A stretch of DNA of 64,000 nt, taken from IMG/VR virus record IMGVR_UViG_3300021598_001001, positions 62,001 to 126,000 of that record, one strand, 5' to 3'. Origin of the DNA: a virus. The notes below the pieces were generated by a model. It searched no databases. It was not told the DNA's origin and saw only the letters and a program-made list of their open reading frames with translations. How positions within the stretch are numbered: position 1 is the first letter of the stretch; the number at the start of each line of letters is the position of its first letter. Positions 5,661-43,437 of the stretch are shown here, piece after piece. Both the position numbers and the translations under genes were made by a program.

Positions 5661-6037
5661 AATACCTACTTTTCTTACTACTACTTACTCCAACGCAAGT
5701 GTATTCACAACAAGTAAACGATTATCAAACTTGTACAAAGTATCGTGAAGTTTACACTCCTGGTTACTATGATAGATATGGTAATTATGTACAAGGAAAT
5801 GTTTCTACTCAGTCATACCAAGTCCCTTGCGGAAATGGACCCGTCAATTATCAGCCACGTAGAGTTGATAATTATGGGAACAATTATTATCGCCGCGGTT
5901 ACTGTAATCCTACTCAGGCGACCCTAGGCGCACTTCTAGGGGGTGGTGTGGGTGCTGCACTATCTAGAGGTGATGGACGTTGGTGGGCGATCCCTGTAGG
6001 CGCTGCCGTAGGTGGTACAATTTTTGGATGTAACTAA
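5657..6037 (+). CDS. Secreted glycine-zipper protein
   Basis: 126 residues. An N-terminal signal peptide (hydrophobic LLFLLLLTPTQVYSQ) is followed by a Tyr/Asn-rich repeat-like region with two Cys, then a glycine-zipper pair (ATLGALLGGGVGAAL and VGAAVGGTIFG) and a final Cys. This matches the layout of small bacterial envelope proteins with a glycine-zipper 2TM domain. It probably sits in or on the host envelope; the role in infection is unknown. Confidence 0.8.
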   Translation: MKYLLFLLLLTPTQVYSQQVNDYQTCTKYREVYTPGYYDRYGNYVQGNVSTQSYQVPCGNGPVNYQPRRVDNYGNNYYRRGYCNPTQATLGALLGGGVGAALSRGDGRWWAIPVGAAVGGTIFGCN

Positions 6038-6039
6038 AA

Positions 6040-6312
6040 ATGAATTTAATTAATTTTAAACACCGTGAAGACTTTGGACACGAATGGTATGTTCAGGTTC
6101 TAAATGCAAAAGGTTGGAGTTTGCTTCAAGCATCTGTAAGTTGGAATGATTATCCTGGATGGCCTTACATCAAGATTAGTTCTGGAACTGGTTCTACTTT
6201 GAGTATTATGTTCTGGGCATATAAGTTTGGTTTTGATATTGGTATTATTGAACGCACTTGGAAGTGGGATTACTTAGAGGAACTAGATGAAAACGAAACT
6301 GAACTGGATTGA
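6040..6312 (+). CDS. Hypothetical protein, Trp-rich
   Basis: 90 residues, a compact alpha/beta-looking protein with many Trp (HEWYVQV, GWSLL, WNDYPGWPYIKI) and an acidic tail. It lies 2 nt after the secreted protein and overlaps the next gene by 26 nt. Not recognised. Confidence 0.7.
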   Translation: MNLINFKHREDFGHEWYVQVLNAKGWSLLQASVSWNDYPGWPYIKISSGTGSTLSIMFWAYKFGFDIGIIERTWKWDYLEELDENETELD

Positions 6313-6625
6313 GTATTATTTCGGTCACTGCTTCCAGACTGGTTGGAGGGAGATGTGGAACAACTTCAAGATGTGGAGAGACCTCATTAGTGGAAATTAT
6401 AAAGACTATGCCCTACTTTCAACTGATGACCCTTATGAAGAATGTTATCAATGGTTCTGGTGTAGTATCAATATGGATGAAACTTATCCCAAAGAGTTTT
6501 TAGAATACTTGATGGAAATGTGTGATCGTATTGATCGTGGAGAAGAGAAATTGATTCCGTTGACTGAAGATTTTATGGATGATTTGAAAAAAATGTTAGA
6601 AGAATCTAATGAAGAGGACACTTGA
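6287..6625 (+). CDS. Hypothetical acidic helical protein
   Basis: 112 residues, Trp-rich N-terminal half (YYFGHCFQTGWREMWNNFKMW) and a helical acidic C-terminus. The last codons (EEDT, stop) lie inside a repeat that recurs at 10155 and 10566, so its 3' end is shared with other genes. Function unknown. Confidence 0.7.
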   Translation: MKTKLNWIEYYFGHCFQTGWREMWNNFKMWRDLISGNYKDYALLSTDDPYEECYQWFWCSINMDETYPKEFLEYLMEMCDRIDRGEEKLIPLTEDFMDDLKKMLEESNEEDT

Positions 6626-6672
6626 GGAACTGTCCATCGACCCTTGACTTTTACAACCAGAATCTTTATAGT
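6613..6672 (+). promoter_or_regulatory. Promoter cassette (type 2) with consensus -35/-10
   Basis: The shared stretch GAGGACACTTGAGGAACTG spans the upstream stop codon. It is followed by CTGTCC (6630-6635), 8 nt, TTGACT (6644-6649), 17 nt and TATAGT (6667-6672). This copy is a near-consensus sigma70 promoter, which fixes where the -35 and -10 fall in the other cassettes. It should drive the gene at 6695 and those after it. Confidence 0.8.
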
Positions 6673-6694
6673 ATGAATATACAAATCTAGATCA

Positions 6695-7252
6695 ATGACT
6701 TACAAAGCAACACTGAAAGTTCACTTTGATACTGAATGGACTCCTAGTTATGGTGGGTCTGGAATCTATGATGATGAAACTCTTCCAGAGGAACATTATA
6801 CCTTTGAGATTCCTTGTCATGACATCAATACCATTCAACTGTTCCGTTTCTTTGGAAATATTGCCCGAACAATGGGGCACTGTGAACAAGGTATTATGAA
6901 AGGAGCTTGTTCACTTGCATTTAATGATATGCGTGGTGAAGAAGAAATGCGTAAGGTTGCTGAAGAGTTTGATATGAAACTTGCAGAAGATTATGCAAAA
7001 GAGTTTCGTAAGTTGGAAGATGAAATTTATGATCTGAAAGCTAAACTTTCTCGTCTCGAACAACCTGAGAATTCTCAATATACTGATGAAGAAATGGCAG
7101 CCATTACTCATCAGGAATGGAAAGGTCTTGTTCCTGGTAGCAATTCTGCTGTGATGAAGGGATGTAAGTGTCCTGTAATGGATAACGAAGAGATGCCTGA
7201 AGATCGTAAATGGGTAAATGGCGACTGCCCTCTACATGGTAAACAAAAATGA
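6695..7252 (+). CDS. Hypothetical protein with coiled coil and C-terminal Cys/His cluster
   Basis: 185 residues. An N-terminal beta-rich domain (TLKVHFDTEWTPSY) is followed by a charged coiled coil (residues about 85-130) and a C-terminal segment with CKCPVMDN and DCPLHGK. That Cys/His pattern recurs as a small zinc-binding-like module in phage proteins. It is the first gene after a strong promoter. Function unknown. Confidence 0.75.
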   Translation: MTYKATLKVHFDTEWTPSYGGSGIYDDETLPEEHYTFEIPCHDINTIQLFRFFGNIARTMGHCEQGIMKGACSLAFNDMRGEEEMRKVAEEFDMKLAEDYAKEFRKLEDEIYDLKAKLSRLEQPENSQYTDEEMAAITHQEWKGLVPGSNSAVMKGCKCPVMDNEEMPEDRKWVNGDCPLHGKQK

Positions 7253-7434
7253 AACCTAACTTTCGTAAAGTCCTTAGTATGGCCCTTGAAGAAGGTGTCA
7301 GGTATGGATACAATCGTGCCCACAAACATGTAGAGAATCCACACGAAGATGCAGTGGTTGATCTAGTGGTTGAGGGTGCAATGAACTCTATCTACGAATG
7401 GTTTGAATTTGAGGAGAATCATGTCTCTGATTGA
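7249..7434 (+). CDS. Hypothetical small helical protein
   Basis: 61 residues, amphipathic helices (VLSMALEEGVRYGYNRAHKH, then EDAVVDLVVEGAMNSIYEWF). It overlaps the previous stop by 4 nt and the next start by 14 nt. Not recognised. Confidence 0.65.
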   Translation: MKPNFRKVLSMALEEGVRYGYNRAHKHVENPHEDAVVDLVVEGAMNSIYEWFEFEENHVSD

Positions 7435-7768
7435 CACAATTAATCATTTCATTCAAGACCAAGAAGGACATCTTCAGTGTCTTGAATGGGATATTCGTGA
7501 AGAAACTAATCAAGAAGAACCACAACTTGATTGGTATTGTGAAGAGTATGACCTGTGTAAAGAACGCATAGAACATCTACAACAAATCAAATCTGAACTT
7601 GCTCGTCTTCAACGCTATGATGATGAACTTTCATCTGTAATGCCTGAGGACTACAAAGATTGGTGGCAGAACTCTAAGGAAGAGTGGCCTGAGGTTGCTA
7701 AAGGTTCTATTGAGAATCTACGTGAACGTGAAGAACTTGCTTGGAAACAACTGGAGGCACAACAATGA
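7421..7768 (+). CDS. Small helical protein, IREETN family
   Basis: 115 residues starting MSLIDTINHFI; the start at 7421 is chosen because gaggagaatc precedes it as a ribosome binding site. It contains LEWDIREETN and a coiled coil ERIEHLQQIKSELARLQ. The protein at 12191 shares SWEIREETN and the following Tyr/Asp pattern, so the two are paralogues, this one with an added C-terminal region. Function unknown. Confidence 0.75.
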   Translation: MSLIDTINHFIQDQEGHLQCLEWDIREETNQEEPQLDWYCEEYDLCKERIEHLQQIKSELARLQRYDDELSSVMPEDYKDWWQNSKEEWPEVAKGSIENLREREELAWKQLEAQQ

Positions 7769-8115
7769 GCGGCGGACACTTTAATGATTGTGGTTACGAT
7801 TACTACAAGGTAGCACAGTTTGCTGATGAGTTGGAAGTAGAAATCCAAAACAACAACAAAAAACTGGATGAATATGAGTATGCTCCCAATTTTTCACCAG
7901 AAACTATCAAGTATTTGAGGAAGCAACTTCGTCAGATGCGTAAGGTAGCAGAGATCATGAGGCATATTGATTATCTGTATTCTGGTGATCATGGTGAAGA
8001 TAGTTTTATGCATCGTGTAAAAGAAGTAGAGAAACACTGGGAGGAGATTGAAGAGATAGTTACACGCATGGATAATCATCCAGATGGATGGAATGAAACT
8101 GGAGACGGTGTGTGA
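7765..8115 (+). CDS. Phage SGGHFN-family hypothetical protein
   Basis: 116 residues beginning MSGGHFNDCGYDYYKV, an N-terminal signature seen in many phage hypothetical proteins, followed by helices that carry EVEIQNNNKK and LRKQLRQMRK. The start at 7765 overlaps the preceding stop (ATGA). The biochemical role of this family is unknown. Confidence 0.75.
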   Translation: MSGGHFNDCGYDYYKVAQFADELEVEIQNNNKKLDEYEYAPNFSPETIKYLRKQLRQMRKVAEIMRHIDYLYSGDHGEDSFMHRVKEVEKHWEEIEEIVTRMDNHPDGWNETGDGV

Positions 8116-8234
8116 AACTTCCATATGTGCTAAAATCGTGGTATTATCACATCACAGGATACTGGGAGAAGAAACTACCACATCTGCCTGGTGCTAATTC
8201 TAAACAATTTTGGAACATTATTAACGGTAATTGA
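8112..8234 (+). CDS. Very small basic protein (GTG start)
   Basis: 40 residues starting at a GTG that overlaps the preceding stop (GTGA). The composition is aromatic and basic (SWYYHITGYWEKKLPHLPGANS). It exactly fills the gap between two genes, which supports translation. Not recognised. Confidence 0.5.
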   Translation: MKLPYVLKSWYYHITGYWEKKLPHLPGANSKQFWNIINGN

Positions 8235-8236
8235 TT

Positions 8237-8422
8237 ATGGTTGAGAAAGTAAAGTTTGTAACGGTCACTCGTGTGATTGATGACCGCAAAGGTATTCATT
8301 ACCTGGATGCTATTGATGAGAATGGTATCCACTGGACTGCTGAATTGGATAACAAACAAGAGAAATGGTTAGTATATACTAAACTATGGACTAGAGATCC
8401 TCAACATCCTTACGATTTATGA
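8237..8422 (+). CDS. Small hypothetical protein
   Basis: 61 residues, beta-rich (VKFVTVTRVIDDRKGIHYL, then WTAELDNKQEKW). ATG at 8237 is preferred over a TTG 6 nt upstream. It overlaps the next gene by 4 nt. Function unknown. Confidence 0.65.
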   Translation: MVEKVKFVTVTRVIDDRKGIHYLDAIDENGIHWTAELDNKQEKWLVYTKLWTRDPQHPYDL

Positions 8423-8637
8423 AAAACTATCGTATCAAAAAAGTAACAGACGGACACTCAACCAGATATTATCCACAACACAAAAGATATGGATTGTTTT
8501 GGTATAATCTATTTGTAGATGAATATAGGGATGGTGATTATTCTACATTTGAAGAAGCACAGTGGCACCTTTGCAACTATTTGAGAGAACCTGTGATAGA
8601 ATATTTGTCCTTTGATTGTGATTGTGGAGAAAACTAA
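8419..8637 (+). CDS. Small hypothetical protein, EEAQ-family
   Basis: 72 residues: MKNYRIKKVTDG, an aromatic strand RYGLFWYNLFV, then TFEEAQWHLCNYLREPVIEYL and a Cys-containing end. The protein at 8956 has the same order (Y-R-I, aromatic strand, LQEAQ, NEPV), so they are probably paralogues. Function unknown. Confidence 0.7.
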   Translation: MKNYRIKKVTDGHSTRYYPQHKRYGLFWYNLFVDEYRDGDYSTFEEAQWHLCNYLREPVIEYLSFDCDCGEN

Positions 8638-8738
8638 TGACTGAATGTGTGTCTGACCCAAAAACTTGGATTGATGTGGCTCAACTAGCAGTTTTTATGG
8701 TTCCTGTCTCCATTTTTCTTTGGAGAGTATCACAATAA
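8637..8738 (+). CDS. Tiny single-pass membrane protein
   Basis: 33 residues: a short polar N-terminus and one hydrophobic helix (VAQLAVFMVPVSIFLW). ATG overlaps the preceding stop (TAATGA) and its stop overlaps the next ATG, which argues for real translation. Probably sits in the host membrane. Confidence 0.5.
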   Translation: MTECVSDPKTWIDVAQLAVFMVPVSIFLWRVSQ

Positions 8739-8956
8739 TGACCGACCTAAAACTCTGTAAGGATTGTAAGCACTACAAGAAAGATTGGTTTGAGCATCTT
8801 ACTGGTGGTGGAGACCGATTTGATATGTGCCTCAATCCAGTAGTGAGTGGCAATCTGGTGACTGGAAAAGTCAAAGGTGGTCGTTTTTGTGATATGATGA
8901 GATTGCCTTATGGTAGATGTGGTAATGAAGGTAAGTATTGGGAGGCACGGAAATAA
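8738..8956 (+). CDS. Small Cys-rich, probably zinc-binding protein
   Basis: 72 residues with CKDCKHY near the N-terminus, then MCLNP, GRFCDMMR and GRCGNEGKYWE. The spacing suggests one metal site. Start 8738 overlaps the preceding TAA. Similar small Cys proteins occur in other cyanophages and phages, with no known function. Confidence 0.7.
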   Translation: MTDLKLCKDCKHYKKDWFEHLTGGGDRFDMCLNPVVSGNLVTGKVKGGRFCDMMRLPYGRCGNEGKYWEARK

Positions 8957-9159
8957 TGAAAGTTTATGATTACCGAATTGTAGAAGACCTCAATTTAAAA
9001 ACTTTGAAACCTTATTTTTTCATTCAGTATTATCATCTTGCTGAAAAAAAATATATTCTTCACTCAGATGCTACATTCCAAACACTTCAAGAAGCACAAG
9101 AAGCAATACGACTACTGAGAAAATACAACGAACCTGTGTATCATTATGTTGAGGATTGA
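8956..9159 (+). CDS. Small hypothetical protein, EEAQ-family paralogue
   Basis: 67 residues: YDYRIVEDL, aromatic strand PYFFIQYYHL, then TLQEAQEAIRLLRKYNEPVYH. It parallels the protein at 8419 and is probably a diverged duplicate. Function unknown. Confidence 0.65.
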   Translation: MKVYDYRIVEDLNLKTLKPYFFIQYYHLAEKKYILHSDATFQTLQEAQEAIRLLRKYNEPVYHYVED

Positions 9160-9160
9160 A

Positions 9161-9334
9161 ATGATTGAAACTAAACCAATTACGAACAGAAGACCAACAA
9201 AAGAAGATGCTAATGGATTTGGGTTAGTTCAGTATTATCGTAATGATTTTGGTGTATGGGGATATGATTACTGGTATAATGTAAGAACCGATGGTTGGGC
9301 ACACACATCAAATTGGAGACCTCAAAATGATTGA
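9161..9334 (+). CDS. Small hypothetical protein
   Basis: 57 residues with a Trp/Tyr-rich centre (GVWGYDYWYNVRTDGW) after a polar start. ATG at 9161 sits just after the previous stop; an in-frame ATG at 9146 lies inside the previous gene. Overlaps the next gene by 8 nt. Not recognised. Confidence 0.6.
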   Translation: MIETKPITNRRPTKEDANGFGLVQYYRNDFGVWGYDYWYNVRTDGWAHTSNWRPQND

Positions 9335-9497
9335 AATTACCAAAAACTACAAACTCACACTCACAGAAGACCAAGCACGACAACTCCATTCTATGCTAAA
9401 AGCTAATAAGGAACTATTGGATATTGGGTCTGGGTATGACGAACTGCGACCACTTTATCGGGAACTAAAAGAACTCTTTGATAATGGGATACGATGA
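9327..9497 (+). CDS. Small helical protein
   Basis: 56 residues, helical (TEDQARQLHSMLKANKELL, then LRPLYRELKELF). Overlaps its neighbours on both sides. Function unknown. Confidence 0.6.
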   Translation: MIEITKNYKLTLTEDQARQLHSMLKANKELLDIGSGYDELRPLYRELKELFDNGIR

Positions 9498-9670
9498 TTG
9501 AACCAACAGATACAGAAATCCTTGAGTTTCTACTCAATCAGTTCAAACCACATTCTCTTAAAATGAATGGTGAGAGTGATTGGGTGTTTATTAATAGTGG
9601 ATTTCCTATGAATAGAGCAAAAGGTAAAAGTGCCCGTGATGCTGTGATTGCTGCTATGGAGGCAAAATGA
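9494..9670 (+). CDS. Small hypothetical protein
   Basis: 58 residues starting MIEPTDTEILEFLLNQF and ending in a helix SARDAVIAAMEAK. Both ends overlap neighbouring genes by 4 nt (ATGA). Not recognised. Confidence 0.55.
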   Translation: MIEPTDTEILEFLLNQFKPHSLKMNGESDWVFINSGFPMNRAKGKSARDAVIAAMEAK

Positions 9671-10169
9671 CTGAAAGACTAAATCATAATCTTAATGTAG
9701 ATACAATCAAAACAATTAAAGATGTGAAGAATATCTTTGATACTATGGAATTGGTTGCTTCTATGGATAAAGATAATCCAAAATATGAAGTCGCAAAGGA
9801 ATACTTATTGATGCTCTCATAAAGGCAACAAAAGAAAAGTTTGATTGTTCCCAATATTTTGCTGGAAAAAGATATAACGAAAAGTTTGATAGGATTATTC
9901 AGGACTTTGAGTATGCGAAGGAACACGGAAGCTTTCCACAAAAACTTACTCTTGGTTACTCCAAGTTTGATTACTCCAATTTTGTTGTGACTGGTAGTTC
10001 TGTGGAATCCTCTTTTGTAATCAAACAGGGGAAAACCCACGAAGGTTATTATACGAATGGAAACCGTAGATATTTGAAGTATTATATGCCTGATAAACCG
10101 AATATGATTGTTCGTTTCTTTATGAAAACTTGTTTGGGCTTTGTGTGGGTTGATGAGAAGGACACTTGA
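9667..10169 (+). pseudogene. Frameshifted hypothetical gene
   Basis: The first frame runs 9667-9822 (51 residues, ending EVAKEYLLMLS). In the -1 frame, coding-like sequence continues from about 9789 to 10169 (LIDALIKATKEKFD, FAGKRYNEKFD, VDEKDT). No ATG opens the second part, and joining them at the overlap gives a smooth EYLIDAL helix. This looks like one protein of about 165 residues broken by a single missing base. It could be real decay, an assembly error or programmed frameshifting; no classic slippery heptamer is obvious. Its last codons lie in the repeat at 10155. Function unknown. Confidence 0.65.
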
Positions 10170-10216
10170 AGAACTGGCACAGGGAGACCCCACAAGGTCT
10201 CCTATTGGTCTATAAT
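10155..10216 (+). promoter_or_regulatory. Promoter/stem-loop cassette (type 2)
   Basis: Contains GGACACTTGAAGAACTGG shared with 6613 and 10566. Geometry: CTGGCA, 8 nt, CCCCAC at the -35 position, 17 nt, TATAAT (10211-10216). A perfect hairpin GGAGACC/GGTCTCC lies over the -35 region and spacer. It would drive the gene at 10239. Confidence 0.7.
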
Positions 10217-10238
10217 ACTCTCATAAGCAACCAAACCG

Positions 10239-10568
10239 ATGATTGACCTCTCTCAACTGAATGTAGAACAACTCAAAGAACTTGAACTTCAAATTCAGAA
10301 ACATAAGGAACAACAGAAGACAAAGGATGCTCTGGAAAATCTACAAGGTTATAAAGTAACTTTTTATATTAGGTTTGACCCTGAAAAGCATAAGGATCAC
10401 GATATGCTTACAAATAAAGGGAAACTTGACCCGAACATTTTTGCTGATTATCTGTGTGATAATCTTGTTACAGACCTGATTAGGGATTTTGAATTGTATG
10501 GTTATGAGGATGTGAGTTATCCTAATGTGGAAGTAGCAACAAAACAAGAAATTGAAGAGAAGTTTTGA
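10239..10568 (+). CDS. Hypothetical protein with N-terminal coiled coil
   Basis: 109 residues: coiled coil LNVEQLKELELQIQKHKEQQ, then an alpha/beta segment with YKVTFYIRFDPEKHKDH. It is a single gene between two type 2 cassettes. Its stop falls within the downstream cassette. Function unknown. Confidence 0.7.
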   Translation: MIDLSQLNVEQLKELELQIQKHKEQQKTKDALENLQGYKVTFYIRFDPEKHKDHDMLTNKGKLDPNIFADYLCDNLVTDLIRDFELYGYEDVSYPNVEVATKQEIEEKF

Positions 10569-10625
10569 GGACACTTGAAGAACTGGCACAGGGACACTCC
10601 AAAGCCCCCTGTGATGCCTTATAAT
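10564..10625 (+). promoter_or_regulatory. Promoter/stem-loop cassette (type 2)
   Basis: Shared GAGGACACTTGAAGAACTGG overlaps the upstream stop. Geometry: CTGGCA, 8 nt, CTCCAA, 17 nt, TATAAT (10620-10625). A stem CACAGGG/CCCTGTG spans the -35 region. The following ACTCTCAT is also shared with the copy at 10155. Confidence 0.7.
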
Positions 10626-10649
10626 ACTCTCATACACAAAGGAACTCCA

Positions 10650-10871
10650 ATGACTATTGAAATCACCAACCAAGTTCGTATTCAACAATACGAAGATTTT
10701 TGGTATACAGTAGAAGACACTCACCTTGATGTGGGATGTGATGGTTGCACCATTTCTTATTGGGTATATGATGTTGAGAAAGGTGATAAACGAGTACAAC
10801 ACATTTGTATGAATGAAGAACAAGCACTTGCTATTGCTGATGCCATCTACAAACTCTTCAAGAAGGACTGA
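10650..10871 (+). CDS. Small hypothetical protein
   Basis: 73 residues, beta-rich start (TIEITNQVRIQQYEDFWYTV), central CDGCTISYW and a C-terminal helix EEQALAIADAIYKLFKK. First gene behind a TATAAT cassette; the start at 10650 follows the promoter, whereas a longer in-frame start would lie inside it. Not recognised. Confidence 0.7.
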   Translation: MTIEITNQVRIQQYEDFWYTVEDTHLDVGCDGCTISYWVYDVEKGDKRVQHICMNEEQALAIADAIYKLFKKD

Positions 10872-10872
10872 G

Positions 10873-11067
10873 ATGATGACTGAAGAACAAATCCTACAAC
10901 TTGCTGAAAATTATCTAACTTTTGAAAAGTGGAATGATATTTGTTGGAAGGCAGATACTCTACAACTTTTGAACTTTGCCCGAGCAATGTATGATGAAGG
11001 TTATGACTATGGATATGATGAAGGTTACAGTAATTGTTCTATTGATATGGGAGATGAGAATGTATGA
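10873..11067 (+). CDS. Small helical protein, GYDEG family
   Basis: 64 residues: EEQILQLAENYL, then LLNFARAMYDEGYDYGYDEGY. The gene at 11303 encodes the same plan (QILKLAKSCG, LLKFAALIYTEGF, GYDEGW), so the two are paralogues. ATG at 10873 or 10876. Function unknown. Confidence 0.65.
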   Translation: MMTEEQILQLAENYLTFEKWNDICWKADTLQLLNFARAMYDEGYDYGYDEGYSNCSIDMGDENV

Positions 11068-11303
11068 CTAAACTTTCTACACAAACACAAGCAATCATAG
11101 ATGCTGCCGATGAAGTATTTTCTCACGGAGGAACAATTAGAGAGGGTTTTGCTGCTTCTCTTCGTGTTCTTGCTGATAATGTTGCCCCTGAAAATTATGC
11201 CTGTTTTTCGGGGCATAGAGAATGGGATGAAGCACTTGAAACAAGAAATGAAAGTATTCGTGAGGCAATTTTAGATATTGCTACTGAATTGGAGCAAACC
11301 TGA
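11064..11303 (+). CDS. Small helical protein, family with DELE-type end
   Basis: 79 residues starting MTKLSTQTQAIIDAADEVF, with SLRVLADNVAP and a C-terminal ILDIATELEQ. The genes at 12382, 14474 and 15348 share the layout of a helical start, a central RELxxEL-like helix and a final ILxxxDELE helix. They look like a local paralogous family. Function unknown. Confidence 0.65.
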   Translation: MTKLSTQTQAIIDAADEVFSHGGTIREGFAASLRVLADNVAPENYACFSGHREWDEALETRNESIREAILDIATELEQT

Positions 11304-11521
11304 TGACTGACGCACAAATCCTAAAACTTGCTAAATCCTGTGGGTTTGATACATTCGTGGGTGAAAAAGATGATGGGACAAACTCCGATTACTGGGAGTG
11401 TTGGGAACGACAACTCTTGAAGTTTGCTGCTCTAATCTACACAGAAGGCTTCAAAGTGGGTTATGATGAAGGTTGGGAAAGAAGTAATGTAAGCACCAAA
11501 TGGAGTTCTGATGATGACTAA
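11303..11521 (+). CDS. Small helical protein, GYDEG family paralogue
   Basis: 72 residues; parallels the protein at 10873 with an insertion of about 10 residues (EKDDGTNSDYWECW). Overlaps both neighbours. Function unknown. Confidence 0.65.
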   Translation: MTDAQILKLAKSCGFDTFVGEKDDGTNSDYWECWERQLLKFAALIYTEGFKVGYDEGWERSNVSTKWSSDDD

Positions 11522-11714
11522 ACTCACAGCACTTGATTTGATGGTAATTTCAGATACTTTGTATAGAACTCTTTCTATCGCAGGATTTGAGGGAACTCTT
11601 GGTGGATATACAAAAGAAGCAAGAGAAAATGTTGCGAATAAGGTTCAAACAATTTTGAGTAATATGGAAGTAGAACTAACTGTGGAGAAAACTGATGCCC
11701 AAGATGACTTATGA
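11514..11714 (+). CDS. Small protein, MTKLTxLDL family
   Basis: 66 residues starting MTKLTALDLMVISDTLYRTL and including TKEARENVANKVQTIL and NMEVELTV. The gene at 12015 has the same pattern, so these are tandem paralogues. An in-frame ATG 3 nt upstream is also possible. Function unknown. Confidence 0.65.
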   Translation: MTKLTALDLMVISDTLYRTLSIAGFEGTLGGYTKEARENVANKVQTILSNMEVELTVEKTDAQDDL

Positions 11715-11862
11715 AGAATGGTGTGAAAAAAATCCAATTGATTGGGATGAGATTGAAAAAAATGATAATCCAGATATGTTGATTACTAAAACAGGTGTAG
11801 AAATGATGCATTATCACCTATACTTGTGGGAATGTAAAAAAGAAGAAGAAACAAATGACTGA
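11704..11862 (+). CDS. Small hypothetical protein
   Basis: 52 residues, MTYEEWCEKNPIDWDEIE followed by a helix ending in a Lys/Glu-rich tail. Starts within the previous gene and ends within the next. Not recognised. Confidence 0.55.
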   Translation: MTYEEWCEKNPIDWDEIEKNDNPDMLITKTGVEMMHYHLYLWECKKEEETND

Positions 11863-12022
11863 CAAACAACCAACTTGGGATGGGATTTACAAATCTCTTA
11901 ATGTAGGTATTGTGAATGTTTATGAACTCACCGAACACTTGGATACACTCTACACTAAAATTTCTGAACTTGAAGCACGATTGGATAAAGAGGAAGAATA
12001 CCGACAGGAGCAAAATGACTAA
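11855..12022 (+). CDS. Small coiled-coil protein
   Basis: 55 residues: MTDKQPTWDGIYKSL, then a coiled coil HLDTLYTKISELEARLDKEE. Overlaps both neighbours by 8 nt, the typical packing here. Function unknown. Confidence 0.55.
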   Translation: MTDKQPTWDGIYKSLNVGIVNVYELTEHLDTLYTKISELEARLDKEEEYRQEQND

Positions 12023-12191
12023 ACTCACATCATTAGATTTATACATTCTCACCGATACTGTGCTACACTCCATAAGTCACGGTGATTATTGGACTGGTTC
12101 TGCTACAAAAGAAGCACGGGATGGTGTCATCAAAAAACTTCAAATGATTATGAATGAAATGGAAGTAGAAGTATCTGTGGGAGAAAACTGA
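12015..12191 (+). CDS. Small protein, MTKLTxLDL family paralogue
   Basis: 58 residues: MTKLTSLDLYILTDTVLHSI, TKEARDGVIKKLQMIM, NEMEVEVSV. Closely follows the plan of the gene at 11514. Function unknown. Confidence 0.65.
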   Translation: MTKLTSLDLYILTDTVLHSISHGDYWTGSATKEARDGVIKKLQMIMNEMEVEVSVGEN

Positions 12192-12385
12192 TGACTTTAC
12201 TTGAAACACTTGAATACTTTCTCACAGAAACCGCAGCAGATATGGATGGTTTGTCTTGGGAAATCCGTGAGGAAACTAACTTTGAGGACAACAACATAGA
12301 CCATTTGACTGAATGTTATGATTTCAATAAACAACTTTATGATAATCTCAAACAAATCAAATCTATTATTGAGGAACTGAAATGA
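12191..12385 (+). CDS. Small helical protein, IREETN family paralogue
   Basis: 64 residues: LLETLEYFLTETAADMDG, LSWEIREETN, then LYDNLKQIKSIIEELK. It is the short form of the protein at 7421. Function unknown. Confidence 0.65.
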   Translation: MTLLETLEYFLTETAADMDGLSWEIREETNFEDNNIDHLTECYDFNKQLYDNLKQIKSIIEELK

Positions 12386-12618
12386 CTGACAAAAAAGAAG
12401 TAGCACAAACACTAAAAGATGCTGTAAAAACACTTTATCAGGATGAGAAGTGTGCCGAAATGGGTTGGGAAACAGATAAACCTACTGTTATTATTGTTCT
12501 CCGTGAGTTAGTAGCAGAACTCCAATACTATCAGTTTTGTAGAGAGGAAGGTGTGGAAGATATGGTGCTTGATGCCCGTGCTATACTTGATGTATGTGAT
12601 GAATTGGAGAACCTGTGA
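12382..12618 (+). CDS. Small helical protein, DELE-end family
   Basis: 78 residues: VAQTLKDAVKTLYQDEKC, VLRELVAELQYY, then ILDVCDELENL. Belongs with 11064, 14474 and 15348 by layout. Function unknown. Confidence 0.65.
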   Translation: MTDKKEVAQTLKDAVKTLYQDEKCAEMGWETDKPTVIIVLRELVAELQYYQFCREEGVEDMVLDARAILDVCDELENL

Positions 12619-12794
12619 TGAGACATCAACACAACCTCAAACAAACTAAAATGTTGATTGATGCTGTTGAGCATTACATTTACACTATCAAAGATGCTGC
12701 TCCTCAATATGCTGTGAAAGAATACCAAGAGTTGCTGAAAGAACTTGAAGAAGAGGAAGCTCTACTTGAAAGAACTATTAAGAGGGATTTGTAA
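12618..12794 (+). CDS. Small helical protein
   Basis: 58 residues: MLIDAVEHYIYTIKDAAPQ, then a charged helix YQELLKELEEEEALL. The gene at 27174 has a similar core (MTIEAVEYYIYRMKEDN, YTKFLEELE), so the two appear to be distant paralogues in different operons. Function unknown. Confidence 0.65.
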   Translation: MRHQHNLKQTKMLIDAVEHYIYTIKDAAPQYAVKEYQELLKELEEEEALLERTIKRDL

Positions 12795-13516
12795 TGACTA
12801 ACCTTAAATTCACATCACCAAGTGGAGAAACTACCATAAAAGTTGAAGATACTGGTAGATTGGGAACAGTAGCACCTAAAACACAACTACACATTCGCAA
12901 AATGGATGAACCAGTGAAATATGAAACTCCTATGACTGAAATTGAAGAACTGAAAGCACAAATCAAAGTGCTTGAAAAGAAGCTCTCATTCCTTGAAGAA
13001 CTGGAAAAAACAAAATCACCAGTAGAAGAAGCATACAAAGATTGGTGGGGACAATATCCTAAATTAGAAACTGATTCCAAGTATGATGTTATAAGGTGGC
13101 AAGGTTTCCAAGCAGGATATAATGCTGCTTATGAAGAAAAGGTAAGTGAAACCGCACAAGAACGAGGAGAACGAGTTCATAATGAAATGGAAGAAACTAT
13201 CAAAATCCACGATGGTTATGGTGTAGTTGATTACAAACCAACTCCACAAACACCAGAACAAGTTGCTGATGGATTGAAAGAAGCATTTAGAGAAGCAGTC
13301 AAACAAGGTGTAGTTTCATCTACTAAATCAAAAACACTCACAGACCTGATTTACGATTGGTGGGAAGATGTATTCACAACTCATAGTGATTGGGATATGG
13401 AAACTTCCATTGATAATTTGGTAGATGAAATTAGTTTGTGGTTGCCTACAGAACACGATACTAACAGTTATAAGTGGAATGAGTGTATCCGAATGATTAG
13501 AGAGAAACTACGATGA
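12794..13516 (+). CDS. Hypothetical protein with coiled coil
   Basis: 240 residues: an extended N-terminal segment (LKFTSPSGETTIKVEDTG), a coiled coil about residues 48-78 (EIEELKAQIKVLEKKLSFL), the segment YKDWWGQYPKLETDSKYDVI and a C-terminal helical domain with two further DWW/DWD segments. It is among the largest proteins of the small-gene block. Its YKDWW motif recalls the DYKDWW segment of the 7421 protein. Function unknown. Confidence 0.75.
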   Translation: MTNLKFTSPSGETTIKVEDTGRLGTVAPKTQLHIRKMDEPVKYETPMTEIEELKAQIKVLEKKLSFLEELEKTKSPVEEAYKDWWGQYPKLETDSKYDVIRWQGFQAGYNAAYEEKVSETAQERGERVHNEMEETIKIHDGYGVVDYKPTPQTPEQVADGLKEAFREAVKQGVVSSTKSKTLTDLIYDWWEDVFTTHSDWDMETSIDNLVDEISLWLPTEHDTNSYKWNECIRMIREKLR

Positions 13517-13695
13517 CTGAAAGAAACTTCAAACAAGAGCTCGTTCACTCCTGTTACTATGATATGGAGAATGGATACGACAGCGAAACAATTGATTATG
13601 ATTGTCTGATTGGTATTATCACTGAATTGTGTGATAGAATAGAGCAGTTGGAAAAGGACAACGAGCTCCTGAAATCTTATGCTTGGGAACAATGA
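13513..13695 (+). CDS. Small hypothetical protein
   Basis: 60 residues: FKQELVHSCYYDMENGYDS, then a helix IGIITELCDRIEQLEKDNELL that looks like a short coiled coil. 4-nt overlaps on both sides. Function unknown. Confidence 0.6.
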   Translation: MTERNFKQELVHSCYYDMENGYDSETIDYDCLIGIITELCDRIEQLEKDNELLKSYAWEQ

Positions 13696-14477
13696 CTGAA
13701 TACAATCTACCAGAAAAAGATGATGCTCCCTGGTTAAACACTACTTATGATGGATTTATGACCCACGAAGAAATGCTTGAAGTTGCCGCACAACGAGAAG
13801 CAGCAAATGAAGTGATTGTTGCTAAGGTATCTGAGGAAGACTATCAGAAAGTTCAGAAAGAAGTGGCAAACAAAAAAGCATGGGAAGCAGTAAAAAAACT
13901 GTATGATGAGAATGGTGATGCTCTCCAACAACTTGCTGATATCGAAAAGGAGGAACGAATGGATGCTGTGAGAACTGCTATTGCTGGTATTGATAAGTAT
14001 TCTGATGCTCTCAAAGAACTTAATGAAACTGAAAAAGTAGAACTGCGAGCAGAGTTAGAAGCAAAGAAGAAAGAAAACTTTCAACTGGTTGCTGATGCTT
14101 GTATGAAAGAATATGAGCAGAAGTATCATCGTGATGTATTCCCTGTGGATGAACACTGGGTTTATATGGTTTCTGAATACTTTGGCACAGGTGAAGGTCA
14201 AACCGTGTGTATTATGATGACACAGGCAAATCCTGGTCATCCTGAAGATTTTGAAACATCTACCAATAAGTATGTTGCTTGCACCACTAAACAGTATCGT
14301 GCTGTGAGAGCATTCCATGAGCAGTTTGGCACTTGGCATCTTCATGGTCTCAGATTTCTCAGTAAAGAAGATTTCTTCAGCGAATATTCATACTACATTC
14401 CTCCAGCGATGATGAAACTCCTCAATAGAAGTTGCTTCAAAGACTTCTACACTCGTGTTCACTACAACTTCTCATGA
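13692..14477 (+). CDS. Hypothetical protein, helical N-terminus
   Basis: 261 residues starting MTEYNLPEKDD. The first half is a long charged helical region (residues about 25-145). The second half is a folded domain with WVYMVSEYFGTGEGQTVC and FGTWHLHGLRFLS. No family is recognised. It overlaps the preceding stop, which supports 13692 over a start 9 nt upstream. Confidence 0.75.
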   Translation: MTEYNLPEKDDAPWLNTTYDGFMTHEEMLEVAAQREAANEVIVAKVSEEDYQKVQKEVANKKAWEAVKKLYDENGDALQQLADIEKEERMDAVRTAIAGIDKYSDALKELNETEKVELRAELEAKKKENFQLVADACMKEYEQKYHRDVFPVDEHWVYMVSEYFGTGEGQTVCIMMTQANPGHPEDFETSTNKYVACTTKQYRAVRAFHEQFGTWHLHGLRFLSKEDFFSEYSYYIPPAMMKLLNRSCFKDFYTRVHYNFS

Positions 14478-14659
14478 CTAAACTTTCTCCAAAAGCAAAG
14501 GCAATTATGGATGTTTTTGATAATGAATATTATCATAAAGCAAAATTACGACAAGTTGCTATTGCTTCTACTCTTCGTGAGTTGATTAAAGAACTCAAGT
14601 ATATTGGTATTACTGAAAAGAACATTCTTGAAATTGTTGATGAACTGGAGGCATTATGA
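14474..14659 (+). CDS. Small helical protein, DELE-end family
   Basis: 61 residues: MTKLSPKAKAIMDVFDNE, STLRELIKELKYI, ILEIVDELEAL. The opening MTKLS links it to 11064. Function unknown. Confidence 0.65.
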   Translation: MTKLSPKAKAIMDVFDNEYYHKAKLRQVAIASTLRELIKELKYIGITEKNILEIVDELEAL

Positions 14660-14859
14660 CTGATAAAGAGCTCTACAACCCTGATGAGTTTCTACTGGAT
14701 AACATCAAAGGGTATCACTATGAGGTGATGGATGAAGGACATCATGTGTGGATGGCTTTCTATTTTGAGAATGGTAACACAGGGCACTTGAATGTCTTTC
14801 TGAATGATGGTAAGATTAACACACGTTATGAAGAGTGGGTGAATGACTTACAAACTTGA
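14656..14859 (+). CDS. Small acidic hypothetical protein
   Basis: 67 residues: LYNPDEFLLDNIKGYHYEVM followed by beta-like strands HVWMAFYFENGNTGHLNVF. Overlaps the next gene by 17 nt. Not recognised. Confidence 0.6.
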   Translation: MTDKELYNPDEFLLDNIKGYHYEVMDEGHHVWMAFYFENGNTGHLNVFLNDGKINTRYEEWVNDLQT

Positions 14860-15148
14860 TGAAAACGCCAAAGCATTCTCTTATACCAAAGAAGAATTGT
14901 TTGATTGCATTACCCGTATTGTTGCACACCCACACACTGCCATTACACATCACGATAAAACTCGTGCTATGGCAATATTTCTTACGTTTGCCGATTATCT
15001 TGGAAACTATACTGAAAGCGACAACAACTTCGGTCATGTTATCTACGAATCAGATTCTACCGATTTTGAGGGACATGTTCTACAGTTGTTGGGTAAGAAT
15101 AAGCCGATGGATTTTTATCAACCTGATGTTGATGAGTTACTGAAATGA
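14843..15148 (+). CDS. Hypothetical protein
   Basis: 101 residues. His-rich centre (AHPHTAITHHDKTRAMAIF) and an acidic C-terminus. The His cluster might bind metal, but no known motif is complete. Function unknown. Confidence 0.65.
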   Translation: MTYKLDENAKAFSYTKEELFDCITRIVAHPHTAITHHDKTRAMAIFLTFADYLGNYTESDNNFGHVIYESDSTDFEGHVLQLLGKNKPMDFYQPDVDELLK

Positions 15149-15351
15149 AAGAGTGGTTTGAAGATGCTTGGTGGTCTTGGACTAATTGTATTAACTTTCG
15201 ACTCGTCAAGTATGGTGACGAGATAGATCGTTTTGCCTTCTTTGAAGAATTAAACAACGGTTGGTATCACATGTATATCTACCCTTATGATGACTGGTAT
15301 CATCCGACTATCTCACAAGAACGAAAAAAGTTTTTAGGCCAAACACCATGA
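15145..15351 (+). CDS. Small Trp/Tyr-rich protein
   Basis: 68 residues: MKEWFEDAWWSWTNC, then YHMYIYPYDDWYHP. Aromatic content is unusually high. Overlaps both neighbours. Function unknown. Confidence 0.6.
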   Translation: MKEWFEDAWWSWTNCINFRLVKYGDEIDRFAFFEELNNGWYHMYIYPYDDWYHPTISQERKKFLGQTP

Positions 15352-37309: not shown

Positions 37310-37640
37310 TGTTTATACTGTTTTCCACAGCTTTATGATACCTTTGTGGAAAAAGCTGTGGAAAACAAGCCATTAAAAAAAGGCTAAAAAAATCAAGCTT
37401 GTGTGAAAGCTTTCTCGTTTATGTTCTCTCTGTGGCCCCTCTGATGGCTTATAAAAAAGCCTCTGAGACCTTGTAATCTTAGCGGGCAGGCTATCACACG
37501 ACCGCATAAATGTCAAGAGACCCCCCACATAAGTCTCCGGGACCACACAGTTTGAGCAACATAAGGTCTCACAGTTTCTTATAGTTTTCCACAGCACTTG
37601 TGGAAAAAGTCTATAAGTTTTCCACAGTCTTATGAGCACT
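37310..37640. other. Candidate replication origin with six DnaA-type boxes
   Basis: Six perfect TTTTCCACA boxes: 37321-37329 (+), 37345-37353 (-), 37357-37365 (-), 37585-37593 (+), 37599-37607 (-), 37618-37626 (+). TTTTCCACA is the cyanobacterial form of the DnaA box. The first three lie in a perfect 15-bp inverted repeat (37320-37334 with 37352-37366). The second set lies in an inverted repeat with CTTATAG/CTATAAG arms. The region is non-coding and is followed by a consensus promoter and a structured transcript. Origin function is inferred. Confidence 0.6.
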
Positions 37641-37663
37641 CTAAGTCCCCCACATCTCGGAGC

Positions 37664-37692
37664 TTGACATAAGCTCTCTGAGGCCTTATAAT
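37664..37692 (+). promoter_or_regulatory. Perfect-consensus sigma70 promoter beside the DnaA boxes
   Basis: TTGACA (37664-37669), 17 nt, TATAAT (37687-37692). No ORF follows for about 190 nt; the transcript would contain the stems CTTAAG/CTTAAG and GGCTT/AAGCC near 37728-37763. It might make a regulatory RNA or a replication primer. Confidence 0.75.
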
Positions 37693-37810: not shown

Positions 37811-37882
37811 ATGGACACTTATCTAACTGGCCACAGAATGTGCCAGAGGGAGCCAGATCCCGTATATTAGCCATGTTGAGAG
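37811..37882 (+). promoter_or_regulatory. Regulatory cassette type 1, copy L
   Basis: CTGGCC, 8 nt, TGCCAG, 16 nt, TATATT (37863-37868), AGCCATGTTGAGAGG. CTGGC/GCCAG form a stem between the first two boxes. Heads the frameshifted gene at 37891. Confidence 0.72.
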
Positions 37883-37890
37883 GAACACAC

Positions 37891-38126
37891 ATGAGCCCAC
37901 TCAAGCTACCTACAACGGTTATGCTAACTATGAGACCTGGAATGCTGCTCTGTGGATTGGCAATGAGTACAGTCTGTATAAGATTGCTCTTCGTTGTGAA
38001 GATTATGCCGAGTTCCAAGAGCTTATGATTGATCACTACGGTATGAGCTGCACCCCTGATGGTGTACTCTGGAACGACTCTGAGCTTAACCACGATGAGC
38101 TCGACGAAGTGATCAAAGAACTCTGA
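37891..38126 (+). pseudogene. Frameshifted NYETWN-family gene
   Basis: After the expected ATG (37891, 8 nt past the GAGAGG of the cassette), the right protein is in another frame: YNGYANYETWNAALWIGNE is a clear match to the widespread small phage family beginning NYETWNVALW. It continues to a TGA at 38124-38126, with no start codon of its own. One extra C in the CCC run at 37896-37898 would restore ATG-AGC-CCC-ACT-CAA into that frame. Either a homopolymer sequencing error or a recent loss. Confidence 0.7.
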
Positions 38127-41167: not shown

Positions 41168-41566
41168 ATGGTAAGGATTTCTCGCAAATTCAAAGATATT
41201 AGTCTGTCATTTGTGAGAAATCCTGTGACAAATGATATTCTTGCAATTACTGATTCTGATGCGATTAAAAAATCTATCATTAATTTAGTTAGAACTAGAG
41301 TTGGTGAGAGATTTTTTAATGATTTGTTGGGTACTAATGTTGATAGTTCTATTTTTGAACTCCAAAGTCCTGAAGTTGCATACCAACTTGAACTTGAAAT
41401 TTCGACTCTATTAAAAAATTATGAGCCAAGAATAAATCAATCTACAGTTTTAGTTACATATACAGAAGAGTCGAATGATTTGAATATTAGAATTTCATAT
41501 GATATAGTTGGGTTACCAATACCAACACAAAGTATAGAATTTATTTTACAACCCACTAGAGTCTAA
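41168..41566 (+). CDS. 25: Baseplate wedge protein gp25
   Basis: 132 residues, the length of T4 gp25. It has the lysozyme-like wedge fold pattern of the gp25/TssE/GpW-like family: RKFKDISLSFVRNPVTNDIL (phage gp25 start), ALTDSDAIKKSIINLVRTRV-like helix with VGERFFNDLLG (the conserved GERxF(N)PxxG region) and SIEFILQPTRV at the end. It nucleates sheath and wedge assembly in T4. It overlaps the gp6 gene. Confidence 0.92.
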   Translation: MVRISRKFKDISLSFVRNPVTNDILAITDSDAIKKSIINLVRTRVGERFFNDLLGTNVDSSIFELQSPEVAYQLELEISTLLKNYEPRINQSTVLVTYTEESNDLNIRISYDIVGLPIPTQSIEFILQPTRV

Positions 41567-43437
41567 TGTCATTCAATCAGTTTACCAACTTAGATTTTAA
41601 TGATCTAAGAACACAAATTAAAGATTACCTTAGATCCAACAGTGATTTTACTGATTTTGATTTTGAAGGGTCTAATTTTTCTACGCTGATTGATTTACTC
41701 GCATATAATAGCTACGTTACCGCCTTTAATACAAACATGGCGGTTAATGAAGTATTTTTGGACAGTGCAACACTAAGAGAAAATATTGTTTCTCTTGCAC
41801 GTAACATTGGATATACACCAAGATCGAGAAGATCTGCAAAAGCTAGAATAAGTTTTAATGTTGACTTAACTACATCAAGTGCGGCTAGAACTTTAAAGAT
41901 TCAAGCAGGTCAAGTAGCACTTGGAGCTGTAAGAGATGGTAATTATATTTTTTCTATTCCAGAGGATGTAACAACTCCAGTTGATAATAACGGTATTGCT
42001 ACATTTGAGAACCTAGAAATCTATGAAGGGGTTTATTTAACAAGTACTTTTACAGTAGATTCATCCCAGAAAAATCAAAGATTTATTTTACCTAATGTAA
42101 ATATTGATACTACAACAATTAGGGTATCAGTAAGAAACTCAGTAACAGAACAATATACTCTTTATACTGATATTCTGAATGTTGGTCCAGATACAAGAAT
42201 GTTTCTTATTGAAGAAGTAGCTGACCAAAAATATGAAATTCGTTTTGGTGACGGTATCTTAGGAAAAAAACCTGCATCCGGTAGTGACATTATAGTGACC
42301 TACATTGTGACTAATGGTAGTTTAGGTAACAGTGCTTCTAATTTTACTTTTGCAGGGGTTCTAAGGGATAATAACCAGGCTGCAGTATCAACTGGCATCT
42401 CCCTACTCAGAACACTTTCTGCGTCCCAAAACGGCGATGAAATAGAAAGTGTAGACTCTATCAAGTACCTAGCGCCAAGAGTTTATGCATCCCAGTTCCG
42501 TGCAGTTACTGCAAATGATTTCAAAGGATTAGTTCCTTATGTATACAGTAATGTGGAATCTGTTACTGCATATGGTGGTGAAGAATTAGATCCTCCAGAA
42601 TATGGAAAAGTTTTTATTTCTATTAAACCTAGAAATGGTACTTTTCTATCGCAAATTACAAAAGAAGATATTTTAAGAAATTTAAAACAATATTCTATTG
42701 CAGGAATCAGACCAGAAATAATAGACCTTTCATATCTGTATATTGAACTTGATACTACAGTTTATTACAATGTAAACCAAGTATCAAGTGCAGATGGATT
42801 ACGCACTAAAGTATTAAATACTCTTACATCATATGCTAGATCTAGTGATGTAAATAGTTTTGGTGGAAGATTTAAATTCAGTAAAATCAATACTTTGATT
42901 GATGGAACTGATCAAGCAATCACTTCCAACATTACTAAAGTTAGAATGAGGAGAGATTTTACTCCTGCTTATAATACTTTTGCAACGTATGAAGTTTGTT
43001 TTGGTAATAGAGTTCACATCAAACGAGGCGGTTATTCAGTAAAATCTACTGGATTTACTATAAGTGGAGTTGATGAAACTCTATATATGGGGGATACCCA
43101 GATTGATGATATTAGTGGAAGAATTTTCTTCTTTAAAGTGGAAAATAATGTTCCTGTAATAATTAAAGCCAATGCTGGAACAATAAATTATAAGAGTGGA
43201 GAAATATTATTGGACGTTGTAAATATAACTGGATCTTCTCTTCAAAATGGATTTATTGAGGTTCAGGCAGTTCCAGAATCAAATGATATTATTGGATTAA
43301 AAGATCTTTACTTACAAATTGATGTTCAAAATTCTGTGGTAAATACTATAGAAGATATTATTACATCAGGTGAAAATACAGCAGCTACATTGTTTACACC
43401 GACTTCAAGTTATTTAAACGGAAAGTACACTAGATAA
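41566..43437 (+). CDS. 6: Baseplate wedge protein gp6
   Basis: 623 residues (T4 gp6 is 660). FTNLDFNDLRTQIKDYLRSN, then FTDFDFEGSNFSTLIDLLAY and NSYVTAFNTNMAVNEVFLDS form the conserved gp6/J-like start. ARNIGYTPRSRRSAKARI and QYSIAGIRPEIIDLSY follow. In T4 gp6 forms the inner iris of the baseplate with gp7. It follows gp25 with a 1-base overlap and precedes the giant gene in T4 order. Confidence 0.9.
   Translation: MSFNQFTNLDFNDLRTQIKDYLRSNSDFTDFDFEGSNFSTLIDLLAYNSYVTAFNTNMAVNEVFLDSATLRENIVSLARNIGYTPRSRRSAKARISFNVDLTTSSAARTLKIQAGQVALGAVRDGNYIFSIPEDVTTPVDNNGIATFENLEIYEGVYLTSTFTVDSSQKNQRFILPNVNIDTTTIRVSVRNSVTEQYTLYTDILNVGPDTRMFLIEEVADQKYEIRFGDGILGKKPASGSDIIVTYIVTNGSLGNSASNFTFAGVLRDNNQAAVSTGISLLRTLSASQNGDEIESVDSIKYLAPRVYASQFRAVTANDFKGLVPYVYSNVESVTAYGGEELDPPEYGKVFISIKPRNGTFLSQITKEDILRNLKQYSIAGIRPEIIDLSYLYIELDTTVYYNVNQVSSADGLRTKVLNTLTSYARSSDVNSFGGRFKFSKINTLIDGTDQAITSNITKVRMRRDFTPAYNTFATYEVCFGNRVHIKRGGYSVKSTGFTISGVDETLYMGDTQIDDISGRIFFFKVENNVPVIIKANAGTINYKSGEILLDVVNITGSSLQNGFIEVQAVPESNDIIGLKDLYLQIDVQNSVVNTIEDIITSGENTAATLFTPTSSYLNGKYTR

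Follow-up and report, generated by a model that had tools for sequence, protein, structure and literature searches.

A conserved non-coding locus with phased DnaA boxes and divergent promoter-like motifs in T4-like cyanophages

Results

DnaA boxes in a cyanophage genome

The window, a stretch of 64,000 nucleotides, comprises bases 62,001-126,000 of a 162,060-base virus record whose nearest neighbours, by both DNA and protein, are T4-like cyanophages of the Kyanoviridae. The initial annotation reported six perfect copies of TTTTCCACA, the DnaA box of most cyanobacteria (PMC4674748), and an exact-match search located all six within 306 bp (37321-37626). The features of the locus and its surroundings are as follows.

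37319-37367, no strand: inverted repeat around cluster 1, with perfect 16-nt arms (37319-37334 and 37352-37367) and a 17-nt loop
37321-37329, plus strand: DnaA box 1 (TTTTCCACA), exact match; the opposed box of cluster 1, resembling box I of E. coli DARS
37345-37353, minus strand: DnaA box 2, exact match; convergent with box 1 across a 15-bp spacer
37357-37365, minus strand: DnaA box 3, exact match; tandem with box 2 across a 3-bp spacer, a 'double DnaA box'
37372-37394, no strand: short AT-rich element; relatives carry ATTAAAAATGTATTAAAAAATAT or similar at the same place
37471-37516, minus strand: conserved core ('element B'), single copy per genome, kept with or without boxes
37488-37516, minus strand: leftward promoter-like motif inside the core, TTGACA (complement of 37511-37516), 17 nt, TAGCCT (complement of 37488-37493)
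37585-37593, plus strand: DnaA box 4 (cluster 2), exact match
37599-37607, minus strand: DnaA box 5 (cluster 2), exact match; convergent with box 4 across a 5-bp spacer
37618-37626, plus strand: DnaA box 6 (cluster 2), exact match; 19 bp start to start from box 5
37664-37692, plus strand: rightward sigma-70-type promoter TTGACA-17-TATAAT, 12/12 match
37827-38126, plus strand: open frame for a small cyanophage protein (TYNGYANYETWN...), stop to stop, 3' of the rightward promoter; in-frame ATG absent
41180-41551, plus strand: gp25 baseplate wedge gene (tblastn), a syntenic landmark 3.9 kb 3' of the locus
41566-43437: gp6, after gp25

The whole record holds eight exact copies of TTTTCCACA, the seventh of which lies far off inside the window. 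Dinucleotide shuffles give an expectation of 1.5 copies per window, and the maximum in any 306-bp stretch across 200 shuffles was two. The window therefore contains a cluster of matches to the host 9-mer in excess of chance, the boxes of which are conserved in relatives, and the shuffles, together with an empty reversed-pattern control (below), rule out chance or low complexity as the origin of the boxes. Each cluster had been placed inside a long inverted repeat, which is accurate for cluster 1, where the arms hold boxes 1 and 3 and the loop most of box 2, but only partly right overall, because the palindrome of cluster 2 holds only boxes 4 and 5. The arrangement of boxes 4, 5 and 6 (+13/14-19+) recurs in other loci.

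Divergent promoter-like motifs and the conserved core

The -35 element of the rightward promoter begins 38 bp from the end of cluster 2. This promoter had been recognized previously as a consensus promoter, a description that is correct but incomplete, as it overlooked the conserved promoter core that lies between the clusters on the minus strand (37471-37516) and with it a second, divergent promoter-like motif. The leftward motif points towards the AT-rich element and cluster 1, and the core looks like a minus-strand promoter from which a transcript would cross both. Long variants of the core read, on the minus strand, TTGACA, 17 nt, TAnnnT, with T at position 6 of the -10 element in 28/31 and a perfect TATAAT in the cores of loci L038 and L180; short variants read TTGAC[AT], 17 nt, TAAG[AC]C, with a poorer -10. 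The motif GCTAAGAnnACAA (minus strand; window 37471-37487) is present in both variants and has been kept even though its distance to TTGACA differs by ~12 bp between them. A rightward promoter matching at least 9 of 12 positions follows the core within 230 nt at 56/100 loci.

An RNA family was ruled out, as the region has no Rfam match, and a structured RNA core was likewise rejected by a consensus-structure test, which found no conserved pairing in the core on either strand. Given that RNA structure is not conserved, we interpret the core as an element at the level of DNA, with divergent promoters.

It had also been proposed that the rightward transcript codes for nothing. This is doubtful, given the downstream frame at 37827-38126, albeit one without an in-frame ATG. 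The frame (encoding TYNGYANYETWNAALWIGNEYSLYK...) matches annotated cyanophage genes, and an ATG lies just upstream in a different frame; a frameshift, pseudogene or assembly error is thus possible.

Conservation of the locus in T4-like cyanophages

To find relatives of the locus, the region was subjected to BLAST, followed by the S-PM2 and S-SCSM2R copies as queries. The same non-coding locus is present in many Kyanoviridae (20 reference phages and about 80 IMG/VR loci), and the boxes, which the initial annotation suggested seeking in related phages, were strongly recovered at a T4-like cyanophage locus 5' of gp25. Along the coding strand of the 20 reference phages, the order is DnaA boxes, if present, a short AT-rich tract, the core and, in many, a TTGACA/TATAAT promoter. 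The core is strongly conserved across these phages (TTGTnnTCTTAGCnCGC...GTCAA), and a core profile gave one strong match per genome in seven complete genomes, the match in P-SSM4 being weak. The distance from the locus to gp25, on its 3' side, is 3.9-7.6 kb in the seven genomes in which both were placed. In S-PM2d it is intact at 100% identity despite the loss of 9.5 kb of neighbouring ORFans (5,799-15,339; the 'ORFanage'). In the S-PM2 record AJ630128 (17414-19333; L131), annotated tRNAs overlap with the box locus and with genes next to it.

Phased DnaA boxes accompany the core in more than half of lineages, whereas 7/20 reference phages possess the core without exact boxes, suggesting that DnaA is not needed by all. 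S-SCSM2R (L129, 2240-2740), S-RSM4 (L362) and Bellamy (L370) retain the core, the AT-rich tract and the promoters and are missing the boxes; S-CAM4 is another relative without boxes. Gain or loss of the boxes has therefore occurred independently of the core, which implies that the DnaA module is accessory or optional and that the core has a function of its own.

Phasing of the DnaA boxes

Because fetching loci by box-pair patterns would be circular, IMG/VR was searched with the core alone, independently of the boxes, which yielded 49 new unique loci. Within 230 nt upstream of the core, 29/49 loci carry an exact box and 25/49 at least two, compared with any box in 0/69 control windows. TTTTCCACA was also the top de novo enriched 9-mer upstream of the core (29/49 loci versus 7/147 control windows).

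In loci fetched by convergent-pair and tandem-pair patterns, convergent spacers peak at 4 and 14-15 bp and third boxes lie at 11-12, 21-22 and 31-34 bp. The boxes are helically phased, with convergent starts mostly 13-14 or 23-24 apart and tandem starts 12, 24 or 32-33 apart, and overall spacers are 4-5 or 13-15 bp for convergent pairs and 3 bp for tandem pairs. Many copies form TTTTCCACA-N4-TGTGGAAAA palindromes, while S-CAM1 and Syn1 carry tandem boxes only, the inverted partner being absent.

An exhaustive scan for exact triads (+, -, -), with the tandem spacer fixed at 3 and the convergent spacer allowed to range over 4-15, returned 86 stretches. The 66 unique triads among the loci collected have convergent spacers of 4, 5, 13, 14 or 15 only, with none at 6-12, and 50 of them adjoin the core in mixed orientation (32 versus 18); the loci share ancestry, so these counts are of non-independent events. 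The reversed control pattern gave no matches in the same scan. A further 59 viral stretches (L784-L842) lack the core element and contain TTATCCACA-type triads that resemble DARS and are more broadly spaced (4-15).

Comparison with host DnaA boxes and oriC

DnaA domain IV from Cyanothece binds such boxes in EMSA and footprinting, as pairs and not as singles (PMC4674748). The boxes of the window are very probably bound by host DnaA, judging from their identity to this consensus. In a comparison set of 61 genomes, taken as picocyanobacterial from family grouping, DnaA is encoded above the score cut-off in 52/61, an exact tandem pair is present in 1/61 and an exact convergent pair in 0/61. Upstream of dnaN in three genomes of the host family, 1/14 boxes is exact and almost all others are one mismatch off consensus; in the host dnaN-upstream regions examined, the boxes are mostly divergent, with a CTACTACTACTA trio beside the last box. 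A tandem-pair scan of bacterial genomes gave matches scattered over diverse phyla.

The phage locus shares with cyanobacterial oriC the same 9-mer and nearby AT-rich DNA; however, its boxes are convergent and occur in either orientation, and it lacks both a DnaA-trio or DUE beside a correctly oriented box and a dnaN neighbourhood. The box arrangement, the missing trio and the absence of the convergent pair from all 61 host genomes rule out a copy of the host oriC.

Comparison with E. coli DARS

E. coli DARS cores consist of three boxes, the first opposed to the other two, with equal spacing at both sites (PMC5742627), and the two boxes that face each other head-to-head have been called essential (PMC10380432). 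The sites that E. coli DnaA prefers in vivo are tandem boxes separated by 2-3 bp, and the same tandem pairs are listed at DARS1 and DARS2 (PMC11317965). The cores were assigned from the MG1655 sequence as TTATCCACT-N5-TGTGGATAA-N3-TGTGTATTA for DARS1 and TTATTCACC-N5-TGTGGATAG-N3-TGTGAAGAA for DARS2, so that direct reading gives the geometry + N5 - N3 - for both.

Window cluster 1 and the 66 triads likewise consist of three boxes with box I opposed to boxes II and III, and the 3-bp spacer between II and III is also found in reference phages. The exact N5/N3 spacing of DARS is found in S-CAM3 (L130) and L232 (6/66 triads), the rest having N4 or N13-15, with N3 preset by the scan. S-PM2 has N4/N3, and window cluster 1 has N15/N3, which is the DARS spacing plus 10 bp; the first two boxes of window cluster 2 are convergent at N5, the spacing of boxes I and II in DARS1 and DARS2. 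Most phage triads, however, differ from DARS in having 4, 14 or 15 bp between boxes I and II, and the phage boxes are perfect cyanobacterial consensus sequences with no sequence homology to DARS. The likeness is one of box geometry; E. coli DARS reactivates DnaA by promoting the release of ADP from it. On this geometry, the architecture of the locus appears much closer to the E. coli DARS core than to cyanobacterial oriC.

DARS2 requires IHF and Fis, and we know of DARS activity in proteobacteria only. The phage locus also resembles datA and other titration clusters in being a non-coding DnaA-box cluster outside an origin, and would hold many DnaA molecules as phage copies rise, but datA requires an IHF site and has a different box order.

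Strand composition and duplex stability

Cumulative GC skew does not turn at the locus but tracks the coding strand, and the detrended extremes lie elsewhere; the change in skew sought around the locus as a sign of an origin was seen in neither the raw nor the detrended curve. The window locus is not AT-rich, and 92-97% of genome bins contain less stable DNA. In S-PM2, S-CAM1, Syn1 and S-RSM4, by contrast, the DNA immediately 3' of the rightward promoter ranks with the least stable in the genome, so that a promoter followed by an easily unwound element is seen in these phages and is absent in the phage of the window. In S-PM2 (L131, about 2640-2880), L361, L360 and L362, leaders of ~200 nt with repeated AAAAACTGAGATTTT-like tracts run from the rightward promoter to the next gene and rank among the least stable DNA of those genomes.

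Discussion

The locus is a conserved, single-copy and presumably cis-acting element, consisting of a core with a minus-strand host-type promoter motif and an AT-rich tract, a rightward host-type promoter motif, and flanking DnaA boxes. An origin, a DnaA decoy and a DnaA-regulated promoter had all been offered as explanations. These options address the right family of elements, and the boxes are conserved, but the skew test failed and the architecture does not match a cyanobacterial oriC. We favour the capture or handling of DnaA combined with control of the flanking promoters, followed by a replication origin and then by plain promoter control.

The best reading of the locus, by analogy, is a DARS-like host-DnaA complex beside divergent early promoters. 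The boxes, most likely bound by the host initiator DnaA, combine a head-to-head pair with a tandem 'double box' (3-bp spacer), the second box of the pair being shared between the two. Because a convergent pair with such a double box is the core geometry of DARS, we infer that a DARS-like multi-DnaA complex may assemble on the phage DNA. As the phage genome multiplies, so would its perfect-consensus boxes, which could pull DnaA off the near-consensus boxes of the host oriC, and DnaA occupancy might determine how active the two flanking early promoters are. That this combination of DnaA capture or handling and promoter control is the purpose of the locus has, on the sequence evidence, about an even chance of being correct. 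Against it stand the seven box-less reference phages of 20, the mixed triad orientation and the restriction of known DARS activity to proteobacteria, and a titration role alone leaves the precise geometry unexplained. A stricter version, in which the locus is a viral DARS, a cis element that would assemble head-to-head host DnaA and recharge or sequester it during infection, coupled to the divergent early promoters and phage replication, is unlikely.

Alternatively, the locus may be a phage replication origin, a tentative reading in which the AT-rich DNA would be opened, and the first replication round initiated, by the joint action of RNA polymerase priming from R-loops at the divergent promoters, as in T4, and host DnaA on the boxes. 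It is consistent with a non-coding locus, single-copy per genome and conserved together with its AT-rich tract and promoters, with the unstable DNA after the rightward promoter in S-PM2, S-CAM1, Syn1 and S-RSM4, with the survival of the locus in S-PM2d, and with a single theta origin predicted for Syn9, as cited in PMC2984593. The flat skew and relatively stable DNA of the window locus argue against it, as do the convergent, trio-less boxes, unlike those of dnaN-adjacent host origins, and their mixed orientation relative to the AT-rich tract. The locus resembles T4 oriF (ori uvsY) in being promoter-based and near gene 25 in a T4-type genome, but the gene order is not the same, cyanophage uvsW and uvsY lie elsewhere, and the position thus does not match. 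Synteny with T4 oriF is unsupported: the UvsW homologue maps elsewhere, and the helicase encoded close to the locus is a different one.

It is considerably less probable that the locus is an ordinary DnaA-regulated early promoter pair, at which DnaA would act as a transcription factor with DnaA itself and replication unaffected. DnaA is a known transcription factor (PMC11317965) and the boxes do lie beside two promoter-like motifs; however, the gene 3' of the rightward promoter varies among phages, the leftward transcript has no evident gene, and simple regulation needs no DARS-like geometry. It is highly implausible that the boxes serve as an operator for some unrelated dimeric repressor, of host or phage, and resemble DnaA boxes by chance, since the many palindromic copies are offset by several tandem-only phages such as S-CAM1 and Syn1, by a spacer that varies by one helical turn, and by a unit that is the exact cyanobacterial DnaA consensus (PMC4674748).

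The prevailing view is that T4-type phages rely on replication machinery of their own and do without host DnaA as initiator. A search of open-access papers turned up no report of DnaA boxes in T4-like cyanophages. We know of no DnaA-handling element described previously in any lytic T4-type phage, nor of any DARS-like element with a cyanobacterial link; a viral DARS, if true, would be the first of both kinds. The persistence of a strictly phased DnaA-box locus in phages that include some of the ocean's most abundant suggests that host DnaA matters to the phage, or the phage to DnaA, and that many ocean and lake T4-like cyanophages may capture or control a host protein thought to be unneeded. 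The locus provides a small, well-defined target for determining where cyanophage replication starts and how the phage halts initiation of the host chromosome.
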